A stretch of DNA of 22,038 nt, from positions 1 to 22,038 of IMG/VR virus record IMGVR_UViG_3300036944_000338; one strand, 5' to 3'. The translations under genes and the position numbers were made by a program. Below the pieces are notes generated by a model. The model ran no database searches. It was not told the origin of the DNA and worked only from the letters and a program-made list of their open reading frames with translations. Position 1 is the stretch's first letter; each line of letters opens with the position of its first letter. Below are positions 2,603 to 9,018 of the stretch, piece after piece. This DNA is from a virus.

Positions 2603-2699
2603 TAGGGTTGCACAAGCAAAGTCAAGGGACGGGATTCAGTCTAAGTTAGATGAGATTTTAATATTACTAAAACAGCTAATTAACAAAATAGGGGTATAA
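2574..2699 (+). CDS. 41-residue basic/helical peptide
   Basis: A short frame starting at ATG 2574 after AAAGGA (2561-2566), overlapping the preceding gene by 29 bases. The first half is basic (TTPARKATNRVAQAKSRDG) and the second half is an amphipathic Leu/Ile helix (SKLDEILILLKQLINKIG) that looks able to form a coiled coil. It ends one base before the DUF6948-like gene. The basic-plus-helix pattern suggests a nucleic-acid-binding or protein-binding micro-protein, but that is inference. Confidence 0.5.
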   Translation: MTTPARKATNRVAQAKSRDGIQSKLDEILILLKQLINKIGV

Positions 2700-2700
2700 T

Positions 2701-3030
2701 ATGACTATTGATAATTTAACAATAAAAGAAGCAAGAGAATTAGCTGGATTATTTGGCGGTTCTAATAAAGGCAATCCATTTAAGATTGGTGAAAGTTATT
2801 TAATTAGAACCGTAACTATGATTGTGCTGGGTAAACTCGAATCGGTTTTTGAAACTGAATTGGTTTTATCTTCCGCATCGTGGGTTGCTGATACAGGGCG
2901 TTTCTATGATGCACTTAAAACTGGTAAGCTTAATGAAGTCGAGCCTTTTACTGATGATGTTATTGTTGGTCGCTCCGCTTTAATTGATGCAACAATATGG
3001 ACACACAAACTTCCGAAAGAACAAAAATAA
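2701..3030 (+). CDS. DUF6948-like phage protein
   Basis: A 109-residue protein with the pattern YLIRTVTMIVLGKLESV (about residues 33-49), then LSSASWVADTGRFYDALKTG and a C-terminal VEPF..DVIVGRSALIDATIW.HKLPKEQK. From memory this matches the DUF6948 family, short beta-rich phage proteins of unknown function that often sit upstream of terminase genes. AGGGG at 2690-2694 lies six bases before the ATG. The gene directly precedes the Ser-X repeat gene. Confidence 0.7.
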   Translation: MTIDNLTIKEARELAGLFGGSNKGNPFKIGESYLIRTVTMIVLGKLESVFETELVLSSASWVADTGRFYDALKTGKLNEVEPFTDDVIVGRSALIDATIWTHKLPKEQK

Positions 3031-3041
3031 ATAGGTGTAGT

Positions 3042-3239
3042 ATGAATCAAACAATATTAAGGGCTGGTTGGGACAAGTCGGGGTCGGGGTCGTGGTCGGG
3101 GTCAAGGTCGTGGTCGAGGTCGGGGTCGGGGTCGGGGTCGGGGGTGAGGTCAAGGTCAAGGTCGGGGTCGTGGTCGGGGTCGTGGTCGAGGTCGGGGTCG
3201 GGGTCGGGGTCGTGGTCGAGGTCGAGGTCGGGTTTATAA
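3042..3239 (+). CDS. Low-complexity Ser-(Gly/Trp/Arg) dipeptide-repeat protein
   Basis: A 65-residue protein with a short unique N-terminus (MNQTILRAGWDK) followed to the end by a dipeptide repeat in which Ser alternates with Gly, Trp or Arg (residues 13-64, one Ser replaced by Val35). The codons are almost all TCG alternating with NGG. The start has AGGTG at 3033-3037 with 4-base spacing and lies 12 bases after the DUF6948-like gene, which supports translation. The lack of hydrophobic residues other than Trp, together with the arginines, suggests a disordered chain. No known domain is recognised. Its base composition is far more GC-rich than its neighbours. It could instead be a non-coding repeat that is open by chance in this frame. 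Confidence 0.6.
   Translation: MNQTILRAGWDKSGSGSWSGSRSWSRSGSGSGSGVRSRSRSGSWSGSWSRSGSGSGSWSRSRSGL
3078..3233 (+). repeat. Imperfect hexanucleotide tandem repeat (TCGNGG)n
   Basis: About 26 consecutive six-base units of TCG-GGG, TCG-TGG or TCG/TCA-AGG. Variation is concentrated at one position of the unit (first base of the NGG codon: G, T or A, never C), plus a few TCA for TCG. Because the unit is a multiple of three, gain or loss of units preserves the frame of the encoded Ser-X protein. Confidence 0.95.
3122..3144 (+). other. G-quadruplex-forming motif
   Basis: Four guanine runs (3122-3125, 3128-3131, 3134-3137, 3140-3144) are separated by identical two-base TC loops, fitting the canonical four-tract quadruplex pattern in both the coding strand and the mRNA. 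Three more four-guanine runs lie at 3194-3209. Formation is inferred from pattern only. Confidence 0.65.
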
Positions 3240-3397
3240 AAATGTTACGTGAATTATTGAGAAAAGAATAACTACTATGGGGCAGTGCAGGTTTAAGCGT
3301 TATAAGTGCTATAGCAGACCCGCCGCCTCACCAATGGATGGCCTCTTGATACTGCGTAGCGGGTGGAGAGGCCGTCCACCAAATTAAAGGAATGAAT
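3240..3397 (+). other. Gene-poor spacer with GC-rich hairpin
   Basis: No well-supported gene lies here. A 9-codon frame (3242-3271) and a 36-codon frame (3277-3387) exist but lack ribosome sites. The main feature is an inverted repeat: TGGATGGCCTCT at 3335-3346 pairs with AGAGGCCGTCCA at 3367-3378 (12 pairs, one G-U) around a 20-base loop. A six-base ACCCGC/GCGGGT complement (3318-3323 with 3359-3364) offers a competing fold. There is no U-tract on either strand, so it is not an ordinary intrinsic terminator. It may be a structured RNA, an RNA-processing site or a small palindromic element. Confidence 0.55.
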
Positions 3398-4531: not shown

Positions 4532-5869
4532 ATGTCCACCCAGCAAATAATACACCCATACGTACCACACAAATTACAGATAGATTTACATCAAAGCATG
4601 TTACATAAACGCTTCGGCGTTGTCGTCTGCCATAGGCGTTTCGGTAAAACTTATTGGGCTGTCAACACCCTTATTCATGCTGCACTTACAACCAAGAAAG
4701 CCGAGGCTCGCTTTGCATACATCGCGCCCTTTTATAAACAATCAAAGCAGGTGGCATGGGATTACTTCAAGCAATTCACTCACATGATACCTGGCTTAAC
4801 TTACAATGAGGCGGAATTGCGCCTTGATATGCCCAATGGCGCAAGAATCAGGCTGTATGGCGGTGACAATCCCGATACATTACGTGGAATATATCTTGAC
4901 GGCGTTGTGCTTGATGAGGTCGCGGACATGCGACCGAATGTATGGGGGGAAGTTATTAGACCAACGCTAACGGATCGCCTTGGTTGGGCTGTGTTCATTG
5001 GTACGCCTAAAGGCATTGACTTGTTTTATGAAATATATCAAAAAGCACTAATTGAAAGCGATTGGTTCGCTAAGATATACCGCGCCGATGAAACAGGCTT
5101 AATTCCCAGCGATGAATTGGCGGCGGCACGTAGGGAAATGACTGAGCAGCAATATGCCCAGGAATTCTTGTGTGACTTTAATGCATCAACCGGCAATACC
5201 TTAATACCTATTTCTATTGCTGTTGCGGCTAGCCAGCGCAATATTAACGATGCTAACGTGCGTGGAGCCGTAAAGGTTTTAGGCGTTGATGTTGCAAGAT
5301 ACGGCGACGATAGGAGTGTTATATTTCCGGTTCAAGGCTTAAAGGCTTTTCAACCTATTGTGTTTAATGATATATCAAATATTGACCTTGGCAACGCTGT
5401 TATATCTCAGATAAAAAGTTTTGAGCCTGATTACGTTAGAATAGATGCTGGGCGTGGTGAGGGTGTAATTGATTTTGTACGCTCGCAAGGTTATAAATGT
5501 ACAGAAGTAAACTTTGGGGGCATTCCATCAAGCGCATATTATGCTAACCAACGCGCTGAAATATGGCATGGCATGAAAAAGTGGTTGGAAAGTGGTGGTG
5601 CTATTCCAAATATCCCGGAGCTTGTATCAGAATTATCAGCGCCTGAATTTAGCTTCGGAAGCTCTAACAAGATGACGTTAGAAAGTAAAGAAAAGATGCG
5701 TGCTAGGGGTTTACGCTCGCCGGATTACGCTGATGCCTTGGCCTTAGCTGTTGGCATACCAATGAAACTGCGTAATAACAATACAGCACAAGCGGTAAAT
5801 AAATCAGAAGGACTTCATACAATGCAAAGGTTCAAGAGTAATACAAAGCGGTTGCATAGTAGGCGTTAA
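4532..5869 (+). CDS. terL: Terminase large subunit
   Basis: The ATPase/nuclease motor that packages DNA into the procapsid through the portal. The 445-residue product shows an ATPase domain with Walker A-like CHRRFGKT (residues 33-40), Walker B VVLDEV (125-130) and a coupling-type GTPKG (157-161). A C-terminal RNase H-like nuclease follows, with acidic residues at GVDVARYGDD (D253), RIDAGRGEGV (D305) and SPDYADALAL (D398/D401). The length is typical of compact TerL proteins and shorter than T7 gp19. The C-terminal ~35 residues are basic and polar, probably a portal- or DNA-contacting tail. It is followed by a 33-base gap with a short AAAAC/GTTTT stem too weak to call a terminator. Confidence 0.95.
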   Translation: MSTQQIIHPYVPHKLQIDLHQSMLHKRFGVVVCHRRFGKTYWAVNTLIHAALTTKKAEARFAYIAPFYKQSKQVAWDYFKQFTHMIPGLTYNEAELRLDMPNGARIRLYGGDNPDTLRGIYLDGVVLDEVADMRPNVWGEVIRPTLTDRLGWAVFIGTPKGIDLFYEIYQKALIESDWFAKIYRADETGLIPSDELAAARREMTEQQYAQEFLCDFNASTGNTLIPISIAVAASQRNINDANVRGAVKVLGVDVARYGDDRSVIFPVQGLKAFQPIVFNDISNIDLGNAVISQIKSFEPDYVRIDAGRGEGVIDFVRSQGYKCTEVNFGGIPSSAYYANQRAEIWHGMKKWLESGGAIPNIPELVSELSAPEFSFGSSNKMTLESKEKMRARGLRSPDYADALALAVGIPMKLRNNNTAQAVNKSEGLHTMQRFKSNTKRLHSRR

Positions 5870-6217: not shown

Positions 6218-7908
6218 TGAAGCAATACGCTTATTTAAAAGATAACTTCAAGACTATGCAAGCAGAGCGTTCCAATTGGGATACTATGTTTCAAGTTCTT
6301 GGAGAATATGTTTCCCAGATGAAGCAGAACTTCCAAGGTCAGCCTTCATCTGGGGAATTCCTTACGGATACTATATTCGACTCTACTGCCACATTTGCCG
6401 CGTATAATTCAGCATCGGCAATGCTTGGCATGTTATGGCCTGGCACTGCAAAGCAAGCAATTGAAGTTACACCGCCTGACGATATGGAAGAATCAACCGA
6501 GCTGGCAGCCTTTTACGAGAATTTATCAAAGAAATTATTCAGAGCAATGGATGACCCAAAGGCTAATTTAATGTTAGCACTTGACGAATATATGCTAGAT
6601 CAGATTATTTTTAATACATCCGGTGTTGGCGTTGAGAAGGGCTATGAATCTAAATTATTATATAAGCCTTATGGCGTTAAAGAATTATACGTTGATGAAG
6701 GTAGGAACGGCAGAGTAGATAAGATATGCTTGTTTTATGAATGGGAAGCCGTAAGGGTTGTGGCAGAGTATGGCGAAGATAAGGTAAGTGAGAGAGTGCG
6801 TAAAGCTGTAGAAGCTAACAAGCCAGAAAAGATAAAGATTCTTATCACTATACAAAAGAGAAAGGAAAAGAAAGCAGAGAAGGGTAAGCTTGCTATGCCC
6901 TATGAATCAATTCACCTTGAATTTGATTCTTGCACTCCATTAAGAGAAGATGGCTTTCATGAATTCCCTATACCAATTGGCAGATTCCGCAAATTAAATT
7001 ACGAGAAGTACGGACGTGGTCCAGGTATGGCAGCGTTGCCCGACATTAAAGAGGCGAACGCTTTACGTGAAGCTATTATTGTTGCCACAGAAAAGAATCT
7101 TGACCCGCCTTTAGGTGTTATTGACGATGGTATGTTGGGCGGTGGATTTATTGATACATCTGCTGGCGCTGTATCGATATTCAACGCTTCTAATAACGTT
7201 GGCGGCTCTAGCCCTATATTCCCGCTTGTCACAGTTGGCTCGTTGACTGACGCGCTAGCAAGGCTTGAGGACTTAAAAGCTACTATATCACAGCATTTTA
7301 ATATTGATAGACTTCTAGACTTTAACAACCAAAATGAAATGACGTTTGGGGAGGCTCAAATCCGTGAGCAGATTCGCGCGGCTTCATTAGTGGGGTTATT
7401 TTTAAGGCAAATCACAGAAGTATTCACGCCGGTTATAGAGCGTAGTATTGCTATAATGTGGAGAGACGGCGAATTTGGAGTGATTCCAGGCTCTATCCAA
7501 GAGCAGGATATTATATCCCAGGGGAAAGAGCCAAGTTATTTGCCTGATGCAATCTTGAAAAGGTTAGATGATGGTGAAGATGTTTATAAGATAACTTACA
7601 AAACTAAAGCTGCTAACGCTTCCAAGGCTGAGGAATACATGGGAGTACTTGATATTCTTGGTGTAGCTGGACAGATAGCAGGTATAGATCCATCTATAGC
7701 AAATAGAATTAATACGCATGAGGCATTAAAGCAACTTGCAAACATACGCGGAGCTGGGATAATTATTCGCCAGGATGATGAAGTTGAGGCAATGGCGCAG
7801 GCGCAAGCACAGCAAGCGCAACAACAGCAGATGTTGCAAATGGCTGATCAAATGGCAACAGTTGGCGAGAAAGCCGCTAATATTGATGCAACAATGGCAC
7901 AAGCATGA
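6217..7908 (+). CDS. Portal protein (T7-type head-tail connector)
   Basis: Forms the dodecameric ring at the capsid vertex through which DNA is packaged and ejected. The 563-residue protein has the layout of the podoviral head-tail connector family: N-terminal helical segment, FLTDTIFDST (residues 48-57), and the core signature YGRGPGMAALPDIKEAN (265-281) followed by LREAI...EKNLDPPL. The C-terminus is Gln/Ala-rich (MAQAQAQQAQQQQ), as is usual for the portal barrel/crown region. T7 gp8 is of similar size (536). It overlaps both neighbours (TAATG upstream, ATGA downstream), so expression is coupled. Confidence 0.95.
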   Translation: MKQYAYLKDNFKTMQAERSNWDTMFQVLGEYVSQMKQNFQGQPSSGEFLTDTIFDSTATFAAYNSASAMLGMLWPGTAKQAIEVTPPDDMEESTELAAFYENLSKKLFRAMDDPKANLMLALDEYMLDQIIFNTSGVGVEKGYESKLLYKPYGVKELYVDEGRNGRVDKICLFYEWEAVRVVAEYGEDKVSERVRKAVEANKPEKIKILITIQKRKEKKAEKGKLAMPYESIHLEFDSCTPLREDGFHEFPIPIGRFRKLNYEKYGRGPGMAALPDIKEANALREAIIVATEKNLDPPLGVIDDGMLGGGFIDTSAGAVSIFNASNNVGGSSPIFPLVTVGSLTDALARLEDLKATISQHFNIDRLLDFNNQNEMTFGEAQIREQIRAASLVGLFLRQITEVFTPVIERSIAIMWRDGEFGVIPGSIQEQDIISQGKEPSYLPDAILKRLDDGEDVYKITYKTKAANASKAEEYMGVLDILGVAGQIAGIDPSIANRINTHEALKQLANIRGAGIIIRQDDEVEAMAQAQAQQAQQQQMLQMADQMATVGEKAANIDATMAQA

Positions 7909-8228
7909 TTGAAATAGACCAGACTAAATTTGTAACCGCTCTAAATGAAGTAGCGGCAACTGATGCAGGTAAGATAGTTTTTGCAATGCTTAAAGATTCC
8001 TGTAAGTGGGATGCCACTTATGTTGCTTCCGATAACCCACAAGTAACACAATTCTACGCGGCTCAGCGCGGTATATATGGCGGCCTTAGAAAATTAATCA
8101 AGATTGAATACCTAAAAGAGATTGAATTTAACTTTAAGAGAAAACCAGATGACGGACATAGTAAGCCAGCCAGCAAGTCAACCAGCAAGTCAACCAGCAA
8201 GTCAACCAGCAAGCGAACCATCAAGTAG
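7905..8228 (+). CDS. Bbp19-like protein with SKST-repeat tail
   Basis: A 107-residue protein. Residues 8-75 (FVTALNEV...GKIVFAMLKDSCKW...FYAAQRGIYGGLRKLIKI) follow the pattern of the small Bbp19-type phage domain found next to portal genes (hydrophobic helix, conserved Cys, 'GrR..y..l'), known from memory in Bordetella phage BPP-1 relatives; its function is not established. The last ~25 residues are a low-complexity basic tail of SKST units, encoded by a 12-base tandem repeat in the 80-base overlap with the scaffold gene. It overlaps the portal by four bases (ATGA). Confidence 0.7.
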   Translation: MIEIDQTKFVTALNEVAATDAGKIVFAMLKDSCKWDATYVASDNPQVTQFYAAQRGIYGGLRKLIKIEYLKEIEFNFKRKPDDGHSKPASKSTSKSTSKSTSKRTIK

Positions 8229-9018
8229 CTTTACTATACCAGAAGCTTACGCTGATAAAGGCTGGGTAGAAAAGATTAAATCCCCGGATGATTTATGGAA
8301 AACTACCGCTAATCTTCAAGAAATGATTGGCAAAAGACCCGCTGGCATACCATTAAATGATGCGAGTGATGCTGAGTGGGATAATTTCTATAAAGCAGCG
8401 GGCAGGCCGGACAAGCCCGAATATACTCTTAATGATCCCGAAGGAATGCCAGAGGGATTTGATACCGCGTCTTATAAACAAATGGCCAGTGAAATACTTC
8501 ATGCCGCAGGTCTGAATCAAAAACAAGCAGATAAAGTTTATAAAGCATATCTTACTAAGGAATTAGAAAGCGCGGGCAAAGCAAAAGAGCAAACAGCGGA
8601 GCAACAAAAAGCACTTGATGCTGAGTTTGATGCGCTACGTAAAGAGCATTTCGGTGATAATTATGACAGTGTAGTGTCTACTATGAATGAAGCTGTTAAT
8701 AGATATACTCCGCAATCATTAAAGGAGGCTTACCAGGCATTAACTGATCAACCCAAAGTACTTGCGGCTGTTGCATCGACTATAAAAGGTATGCAAGACG
8801 AGATTAACAAAGTGCGTAAAGAGTATGGTGCGGAAGGAACTATCACAACTGGTGGCCAGGCAACCACTCAAAGTATAGAAGAAGTAAGGCGCGAGTTAAG
8901 TAAGTTAAGAACCTCGCCAGAGGCAAGAGATTTCACTAACCGTGGCGTGTACGATAGTACTAACGCTAGAATTAAAGAATTAGATGCAATAGTTGATAGG
9001 CATTACAATAAGAAATAG
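8149..9018 (+). CDS. Capsid scaffolding protein
   Basis: A 289-residue acidic, highly helical protein directly before the major capsid gene, as expected for the internal scaffold that guides procapsid assembly and then leaves. Features: N-terminal SQPA repeats (about residues 5-20), a conserved-type block (YADKGWVEKIKSPDDLWKTT, then NLQEMIGKRPAGIP) and a PDKPEYTL element seen in podoviral scaffolds, a central Ala/Glu/Lys helix, and a charged C-terminal helix (VRRELSKLRTSPEA...HYNKK) suited to capsid binding. Start 8149 is chosen over in-frame 8122 because AAGAG at 8136-8140 precedes it by eight bases. The first 80 bases are shared with the Bbp19-like gene. Confidence 0.85.
   Translation: MTDIVSQPASQPASQPASQPASEPSSSFTIPEAYADKGWVEKIKSPDDLWKTTANLQEMIGKRPAGIPLNDASDAEWDNFYKAAGRPDKPEYTLNDPEGMPEGFDTASYKQMASEILHAAGLNQKQADKVYKAYLTKELESAGKAKEQTAEQQKALDAEFDALRKEHFGDNYDSVVSTMNEAVNRYTPQSLKEAYQALTDQPKVLAAVASTIKGMQDEINKVRKEYGAEGTITTGGQATTQSIEEVRRELSKLRTSPEARDFTNRGVYDSTNARIKELDAIVDRHYNKK
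8170..8217 (+). repeat. 12-bp tandem repeat read in two frames
   Basis: CCAGCAAGTCAA occurs three times exactly (8170-8181, 8182-8193, 8194-8205), with a fourth altered copy (8206-8217) and a partial copy just upstream. In the Bbp19-like frame the unit encodes SKST; in the scaffold frame it encodes SQPA. The unit length is a multiple of three, so expansion extends both proteins without a frameshift. Confidence 0.95.

Follow-up and report, generated by a model that had tools for sequence, protein, structure and literature searches.

The window, that is, the whole 22,038-bp virus record analysed here, carries a C5 methylase gene, then small genes and then the late genes, with a large terminase and a head-tail adaptor recognised by PHROGs matches and a capsid gene also present. 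Two adjacent small genes of this window are the subject of our analysis (Table 1). The second of them translates as MNQTILRAGWDK-SGSGSWSGSRSWSRSGSGSGSGVRSRSRSGSWSGSWSRSGSGSGSWSRSRSGL-stop, and a preliminary description had read it as a 12-residue head with a proper ribosome site, followed by about 26 Ser-X dipeptides in which X is only Gly, Trp or Arg. The head (MNQTILRAGWDK) and an AGGTG before the ATG are indeed in place, and 26 units with just these partners follow, except that one of the supposed serines is a valine. At the Ser position we count 22 TCG codons, 3 TCA codons and one GTG (Val), giving 25/26 Ser, so Ser is kept across a codon change as had been proposed. The partner codons are 12 GGG, 8 AGG, 5 TGG and one terminal GGT, and the partner is therefore only Gly, Arg or Trp, varying at the first base. 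At the DNA level the array appears as a period-6 repeat (3077-3232, 26 copies, 84% matches, score 186) in surroundings of 30-40% GC. The second frame of the array has a TTG start and reads V-x throughout; the third reads Arg-Gly, but contains an internal TGA and has no ATG within the window.

Table 1. Features of the two-gene locus (window coordinates).
Feature	Position	Strand	Basis or remark
Shine-Dalgarno-like AGGGG before the Sm-like gene	2690..2694	+	sequence
Upstream partner gene, 109-aa protein, predicted Sm/LSm fold	2701..3030	+	AF2 model and structural matches
Shine-Dalgarno-like AGGTG before the repeat ORF	3033..3037	+	sequence; 4 nt from ATG
Ser-(Arg/Gly/Trp) dipeptide-repeat gene	3042..3239	+	65 aa, calculated pI 12, net charge about +8.5
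12-codon head MNQTILRAGWDK, conserved	3042..3077	+	consensus over 51 heads of 12 residues
Dipeptide array, 26 units of Ser codon + NGG (period-6 DNA GGTCGN)	3078..3233	+	

Just 3' of the repeat gene lies a strong hairpin (3335-3378) with a 13-bp outer stem, GGATGGCCTCT...GGAGAGGCCGTCC, and without a T-run; the 111-nt stretch holding it has a z of -3.1, and such a hairpin was not general among the relatives examined. Further along the window, a 12-bp tandem repeat, CCAGCAAGTCAA (8163-8226), is read in two frames, as the Ser/Lys/Thr repeats that close ORF 7905-8228 and as Gln-Pro-Ala-Ser repeats early in the overlapping ORF 8122-9018. A 144-aa neighbour of the pair, used as a search query, returned no relatives.

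The AF2 model of the upstream protein of the window (pLDDT 93.5) and a separate model of a divergent second subfamily (pLDDT 92.1) both show an N-terminal helix and a five-stranded Sm barrel. All 50 structural matches listed for the window protein are Sm/LSm proteins, the best of those listed being the archaeal SmAP 1i8f (Z 9.8 over 67 residues, rmsd 1.9), with Foldseek E-values of only about 1e-3; for the second subfamily the best Z is 10.6 and the top 50 listed are again all Sm/LSm. The upstream protein is thus predicted to have an Sm/LSm fold in both subfamilies, and, by reading, the 'IIGRGSI' in its last strands resembles an Sm2 motif. Scans with Pfam and PADLOC (91 members), PHROG and NCBIfam gave no family worth naming; specifically, there was no Sm/LSm/Hfq HMM match in Pfam (91 members) or NCBIfam (window protein), and a profile search of PDB sequences with the upstream family gave no Sm/LSm/Hfq match either. 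The gene shares a predicted fold with the Sm/LSm/Hfq superfamily (archaeal SmAPs, eukaryotic Sm/LSm, bacterial Hfq, Rof), from which it is set apart by an identity of only 10-20% and by its obligate dipeptide-repeat neighbour. Neither Hfq nor 3BY7 is among the 50 structural matches listed, which excludes neither. PDB 3BY7 is reportedly an Sm-like protein of putative cyanophage origin, a phage-linked instance of the fold; the profile search of PDB sequences did not find it, and we know of no repeat partner for it.

The upstream gene had been called DUF6948-like, a label that stands at one level and not at another. Pfam HMMs do not reach the protein, with no DUF6948 match in scans of the 91 members (provided the library includes that model). 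On the other hand, the best viral structural match is A0A6J5MA76, one of the DUF6948 proteins of uncultured Caudovirales (E 7.6e-5, 22% identity), and since this nearest viral model is annotated DUF6948, the label appears right at the level of the predicted fold although the HMM misses it. A shared Sm fold alone does not prove RNA binding.

When the upstream protein (2701-3030) was used to search 2.9 million viral contigs, 49 loci were obtained, nearly all of which have a period-6 array directly behind the upstream gene. As an unbiased test, the first ATG ORF after the upstream gene was taken at 57 loci from viral, MAG and deposited-phage sources; it has at least 60% Ser at alternate positions in 45 of them, and several of the other 12 are visibly cut, divergent or GTG-started. 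The reverse search used the DNA pattern (GGTCGN)7 alone and returned at least 120 loci. Among the 120 listed, the upstream gene lies within 150 nt in 72-74, 28 have too little upstream sequence, and 18 are without an Sm-like gene despite at least 400 nt upstream; most of the non-linked loci are cut off or divergent. Other patterns also adjoin the Sm-like gene, namely (GGTCTN)7 in 66/120, (GGTCCN)7 in 6/31 and (GGAGTN)7 in 16/79 of the loci listed. The control pattern (GCTCGN)7, which would give Ser-NGC, had the Sm-like gene in 0/36 loci. With the control (GGACGN)7 (Thr-NGG) it was found in 3/38, and all three proved to be Thr-(Arg/Gly/Trp) repeat ORFs.

The preliminary description had suggested looking for a conserved position beside the DUF6948-like gene, and this is what the neighbourhoods reveal: in a range of 4 kb around the repeat gene, 110 of 135 non-duplicate loci have the pair side by side, and the most frequent real neighbour family after it is seen in only 6 (two further large neighbour clusters are antisense ORFs of the Sm-like gene and were discounted). 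No conserved third gene was found in these 4-kb surroundings of the 135 loci. The lack of any other recurrent neighbour suggests a two-gene cassette moving between otherwise different phages. The gap between the two genes is most often -4, an ATGA overlap. By these counts, the pair is inherited together across unrelated phages.

Some loci have a different arrangement. In L024 (5274-5790) an ORF of about 170 codons, resembling by eye the accessory domains of homing endonucleases, lies between the Sm-like and repeat genes. In L035 the Sm-like gene is followed (at about 5339-5590) by an ORF with a low-complexity [V/T]-x-D-Q repeat, where x is R, S, C or W, and a Ser-X ORF lies upstream, at 4579. 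L021 (5336-9017) has at least 11 tandem paralogous repeat ORFs with heads like MNATLLRAGYVQ, and uses TGT (Cys) and AGT (Ser) as partner codons in addition to NGG.

An ATG within 75 nt of the array is found in the Ser-X frame in 51/59 and 86/109 arrays, compared with 12, 7, 22 and 20 arrays for the two other frames. The preliminary description had named stops or frameshifts inside the repeat, or relatives without the head, as evidence against a protein. The reading frame is open in 56 of 59 arrays, and a change of TGG to a stop occurs in one array only, whereas G-to-A changes in the other NGG codons occur in dozens (GGG to GGA in 16 arrays and to GAG in 12; CGG to CAG in 18 and to CGA in 5). 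Starts in the Ser-X frame together with depleted stops indicate that the repeat gene encodes a translated protein. Relatives also carry the head, usually 12 residues long, with the consensus M-N-[AQ]-A-[ILV]-L-R-A-G-[YF]-[DE]-x, so that in most of them the start codon lies 36 nt before the first Ser. Other head types are [KR]QKYR, GNINT and NYW; the [KR]QKYR heads come mostly from loci with an upstream protein of the second subfamily, and head type appears to follow Sm subtype. Judged by these signatures of selection, the repeat genes form a conserved, translated protein family. Two other coding possibilities were considered and rejected. The Arg-Gly frame (CGN GGT), where the variable base would be a synonymous wobble, has the TGA and lacks a start in the window, starts in it are rare in relatives, and AGC, TCT and AGT arrays encode no Arg-Gly; reverse-strand ORFs (Pro-Thr and others) show no enrichment of starts.

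All six Ser codons are in use at the alternating position, and within one phage the choice is nearly uniform. Among 228 pairs we find TCG in 105, TCT in 79, AGT in 21, AGC in 8, TCC in 6 and TCA in 5, with Thr instead of Ser in 4 (ACG in 3, ACC in 1), these per-codon numbers reflecting which DNA patterns were searched. In L339, L355 and L357, Thr replaces Ser throughout, behind the Sm-like gene. Parsimony on a FastTree tree of the Sm-like proteins requires 22 or more switches among the TCN, AGY and ACN groups, an approximate figure given the short alignment, and two loci with the same head and 82% upstream identity, L047 (AGC) and L048 (TCT), differ in Ser codon throughout. A fixed DNA motif cannot explain such switches. 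This bears out the earlier suggestion that the dipeptide pattern, beyond the DNA repeat, is kept: comparison across phages shows retention of a hydroxyl residue and of Arg/Gly/Trp identity, with codons and order free.

These observations weigh on three explanations in which the peptide itself would matter little. That the array is a DNA- or RNA-level element, such as a binding-site array, a packaging or recombination site or a structured RNA, would fit its strict period of 6 with fixed GG and, in the window, its location before the small terminase gene. We consider it highly improbable, as the other four bases vary freely except for encoding Ser/Thr in one frame, start codons lie in that frame, and the position relative to packaging genes is not kept. 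A structured RNA was also looked for and rejected, with no Rfam match and downstream RNA structure only slightly above control.

The second explanation is that the NGG codons are what matters, by slowing ribosomes, causing peptidyl-tRNA drop-off or titrating tRNAs with CCN anticodons, and that the peptide is a by-product. The partner is NGG almost without exception in homogeneous arrays, and early NGG codons are reported to suppress expression through peptidyl-tRNA drop-off (PMC12204400). However, the other codon is always Ser or Thr whatever its triplet, which a codon effect does not need; the arrays start only after about 12 codons; and the choice between AGG and CGG is set by genome composition, not by rarity. 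Moreover, in the divergent L015, 39 of 40 partner positions remain Arg, Gly or Trp even though some of their codons are GGT or CGA (its Ser having drifted to Ala and Thr). An NGG effect is thus distinctly improbable.

Thirdly, a slippage-prone hexamer might have expanded neutrally behind a functional head, with no role of its own. Tandem hexamers are unstable, and array length and order do differ between cassettes that are 97-99.5% identical upstream; the arrays are almost wholly different despite upstream DNA identity of 99.5% (L065/L137) or 97.2% (L025/L027). Rare within-array variants are also near-neutral, with missense changes in 73 arrays versus synonymous ones in 34 (6:3 sites); missense being about as common as synonymous suggests that single units are under little constraint. 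Against this, unrelated phages share one amino-acid pattern while spelling it with six different Ser codons or with Thr, the shares of Arg, Gly and Trp are close to one third each, stops are depleted, and identical neighbours are rarer than chance (0.90) where single-unit slippage would give an excess. Neutral expansion is already disfavoured, and we regard it as very unlikely.

The partner residues of the relatives, whose comparison had been proposed, are again Arg, Gly and Trp, in a ratio of about 1:1:1 from 35% to more than 60% GC. The units of each phage are of three kinds, for Trp, for Gly and with one Arg codon, which are equally represented and follow one another almost at random, identical neighbours being only slightly depleted. 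The Arg codon is AGG in AT-rich phages and CGG in GC-rich ones (AGG in 116 and CGG in 105 of the 228 pairs), both being present in 10 of 173 arrays, and the spread of composition among arrays is slightly greater than multinomial (median chi-square 2.1 on 2 df, expectation 1.4). Random base choice at the variable position was rejected as an account: besides T and G, an array has A or C but rarely the two together, and Arg, Gly and Trp are nonetheless near one third each. Nearly every partner codon ends in G (for Gly, GGG in 1469/1527), which plain protein-level selection does not predict, so that unit turnover or a codon-level constraint is needed as well. We infer a turnover of three unit types combined with selection on composition. 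Whole arrays seem to have been exchanged while the head stayed as it was, in some cases with a change of Ser codon. It is possible, though doubtful, that a dedicated process actively reshuffles or rebuilds the order of the units, making a diversified or tag-like protein with a three-letter unit alphabet that would work with an RNA-binding Sm-like protein. The fixed A in AGC/AGT Ser codons beside the varying NGG argues against a target of a diversity-generating retroelement.

Among 50,697 deposited phages the cassette occurs in two, MW202573 and MW202825, both from the Manatee Spring metagenome, where its genes are annotated as hypothetical only or not at all. In MW202573, a complete circular record, the pair is UOF78857/UOF78858, the repeat protein being UOF78858 (MNAAIIRAGLDASWSWSWS...); it comes after a repressor gene that points leftward and lies early in the gene block that diverges from it to the right. 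In MW202825 (record 5395-5649; L505 3001-3255) an unannotated Sm-like gene is followed by two repeat ORFs. An upstream-protein query (A2) of 84,980 species genomes found the upstream gene on 9 MAG contigs, 8 of which also have the repeat gene, and one query of plasmids found no cassette. The window repeat protein has no family match in Pfam, PHROG or NCBIfam beyond a sub-threshold composition match in NCBIfam, and we found no paper on the pair, on DUF6948 or with array heptapeptides such as SWSRSWS. In the databases and literature searched, we thus found no description of the pair. It has probably escaped annotation because the repeat protein is short, of low complexity and nearly confined to uncultured phages, so that repeat filters remove it.

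The 183 repeat proteins have a median length of 65 aa, a charge of about +9.5 and 13% Trp, and are low-complexity, Arg-rich, cationic and poor in acidic residues, a composition of SR/RGG type. Arg-rich low-complexity chains occur on Sm/LSm-fold proteins as the RG/RGG tails of SmB, SmD1, SmD3 and LSM14-type proteins. Like the RS domains of SR proteins and RG/RGG tails, the repeat protein has a Ser-Arg or Arg-Gly content; unlike them, it is a separate, short protein with strict Ser alternation, a random ternary partner, one third Trp at the partner position and no recognisable sequence relationship (low complexity makes sequence homology to RS/RGG proteins meaningless). The composition and the predicted Sm-fold neighbour fit the earlier suggestion of a disordered RNA-binding or phase-separating chain.

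We propose that the repeat protein is a cationic, Trp-containing, probably disordered RNA-binding partner of the phage Sm-like protein, the two being made from a translationally coupled two-gene cassette, and we give this reading a probability of about 0.5. The first gene would yield the Sm/LSm-like protein and the second a conserved head of about 12 residues followed by 10-50 dipeptides of the form [Ser/Thr]-[Arg/Gly/Trp]. The head may dock the chain, presumably disordered, to the Sm-like protein; Arg would bind RNA phosphates and Trp would stack on bases or on other chains, as in sticker-and-spacer chains. During infection, both proteins might then act together on RNA of the host, of the phage or of a regulatory kind, coating, condensing or redirecting it. 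Array order would be free because only composition matters, which matches the rapid change of the arrays.

Two other functions for the pair can be weighed against this one. It could be a toxin-antitoxin-like or killer-peptide cassette, in which the Sm-like protein restrains a cationic Trp/Arg repeat protein that would otherwise damage membranes or ribosomes. Trp/Arg-rich cationic peptides are often antimicrobial, and an isolated cassette spread across phages, with a small first gene and a small, very basic second gene often in ATGA overlap, would suit such a role. Yet PADLOC recognised no toxin-antitoxin or defence family among the 91 Sm-like proteins, only single weak matches, the head is by inspection neither a signal nor a membrane segment, and the array sequence is free to vary, unlike that of most toxins; we think this function rather unlikely. 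Alternatively, the pair could act in antitermination or Rho control and keep phage transcription going, the Sm-like protein playing the part of Rof and the Arg-rich chain that of the RNA-binding, likewise Arg-rich, arm of lambda N. Rof is an Sm-like inhibitor of Rho (PMC11018626), and the place of the pair in MW202573, near the start of the rightward block, would be apt. In the window, on the other hand, about 1.1 kb separate the pair from the packaging genes that follow, and its neighbours are not conserved, so antitermination also seems unlikely.

In the repeat protein, Ser-Arg, Ser-Gly and Ser-Trp units make up a near-random ternary copolymer that many unrelated phages maintain, each with codons of its own. 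To our knowledge, nature here offers a case in which selection acts on composition and spacing and not on the sequence itself, and the strict link of this copolymer to a protein of predicted Sm/LSm fold suggests that phages have a system for handling RNA that is as yet undescribed.
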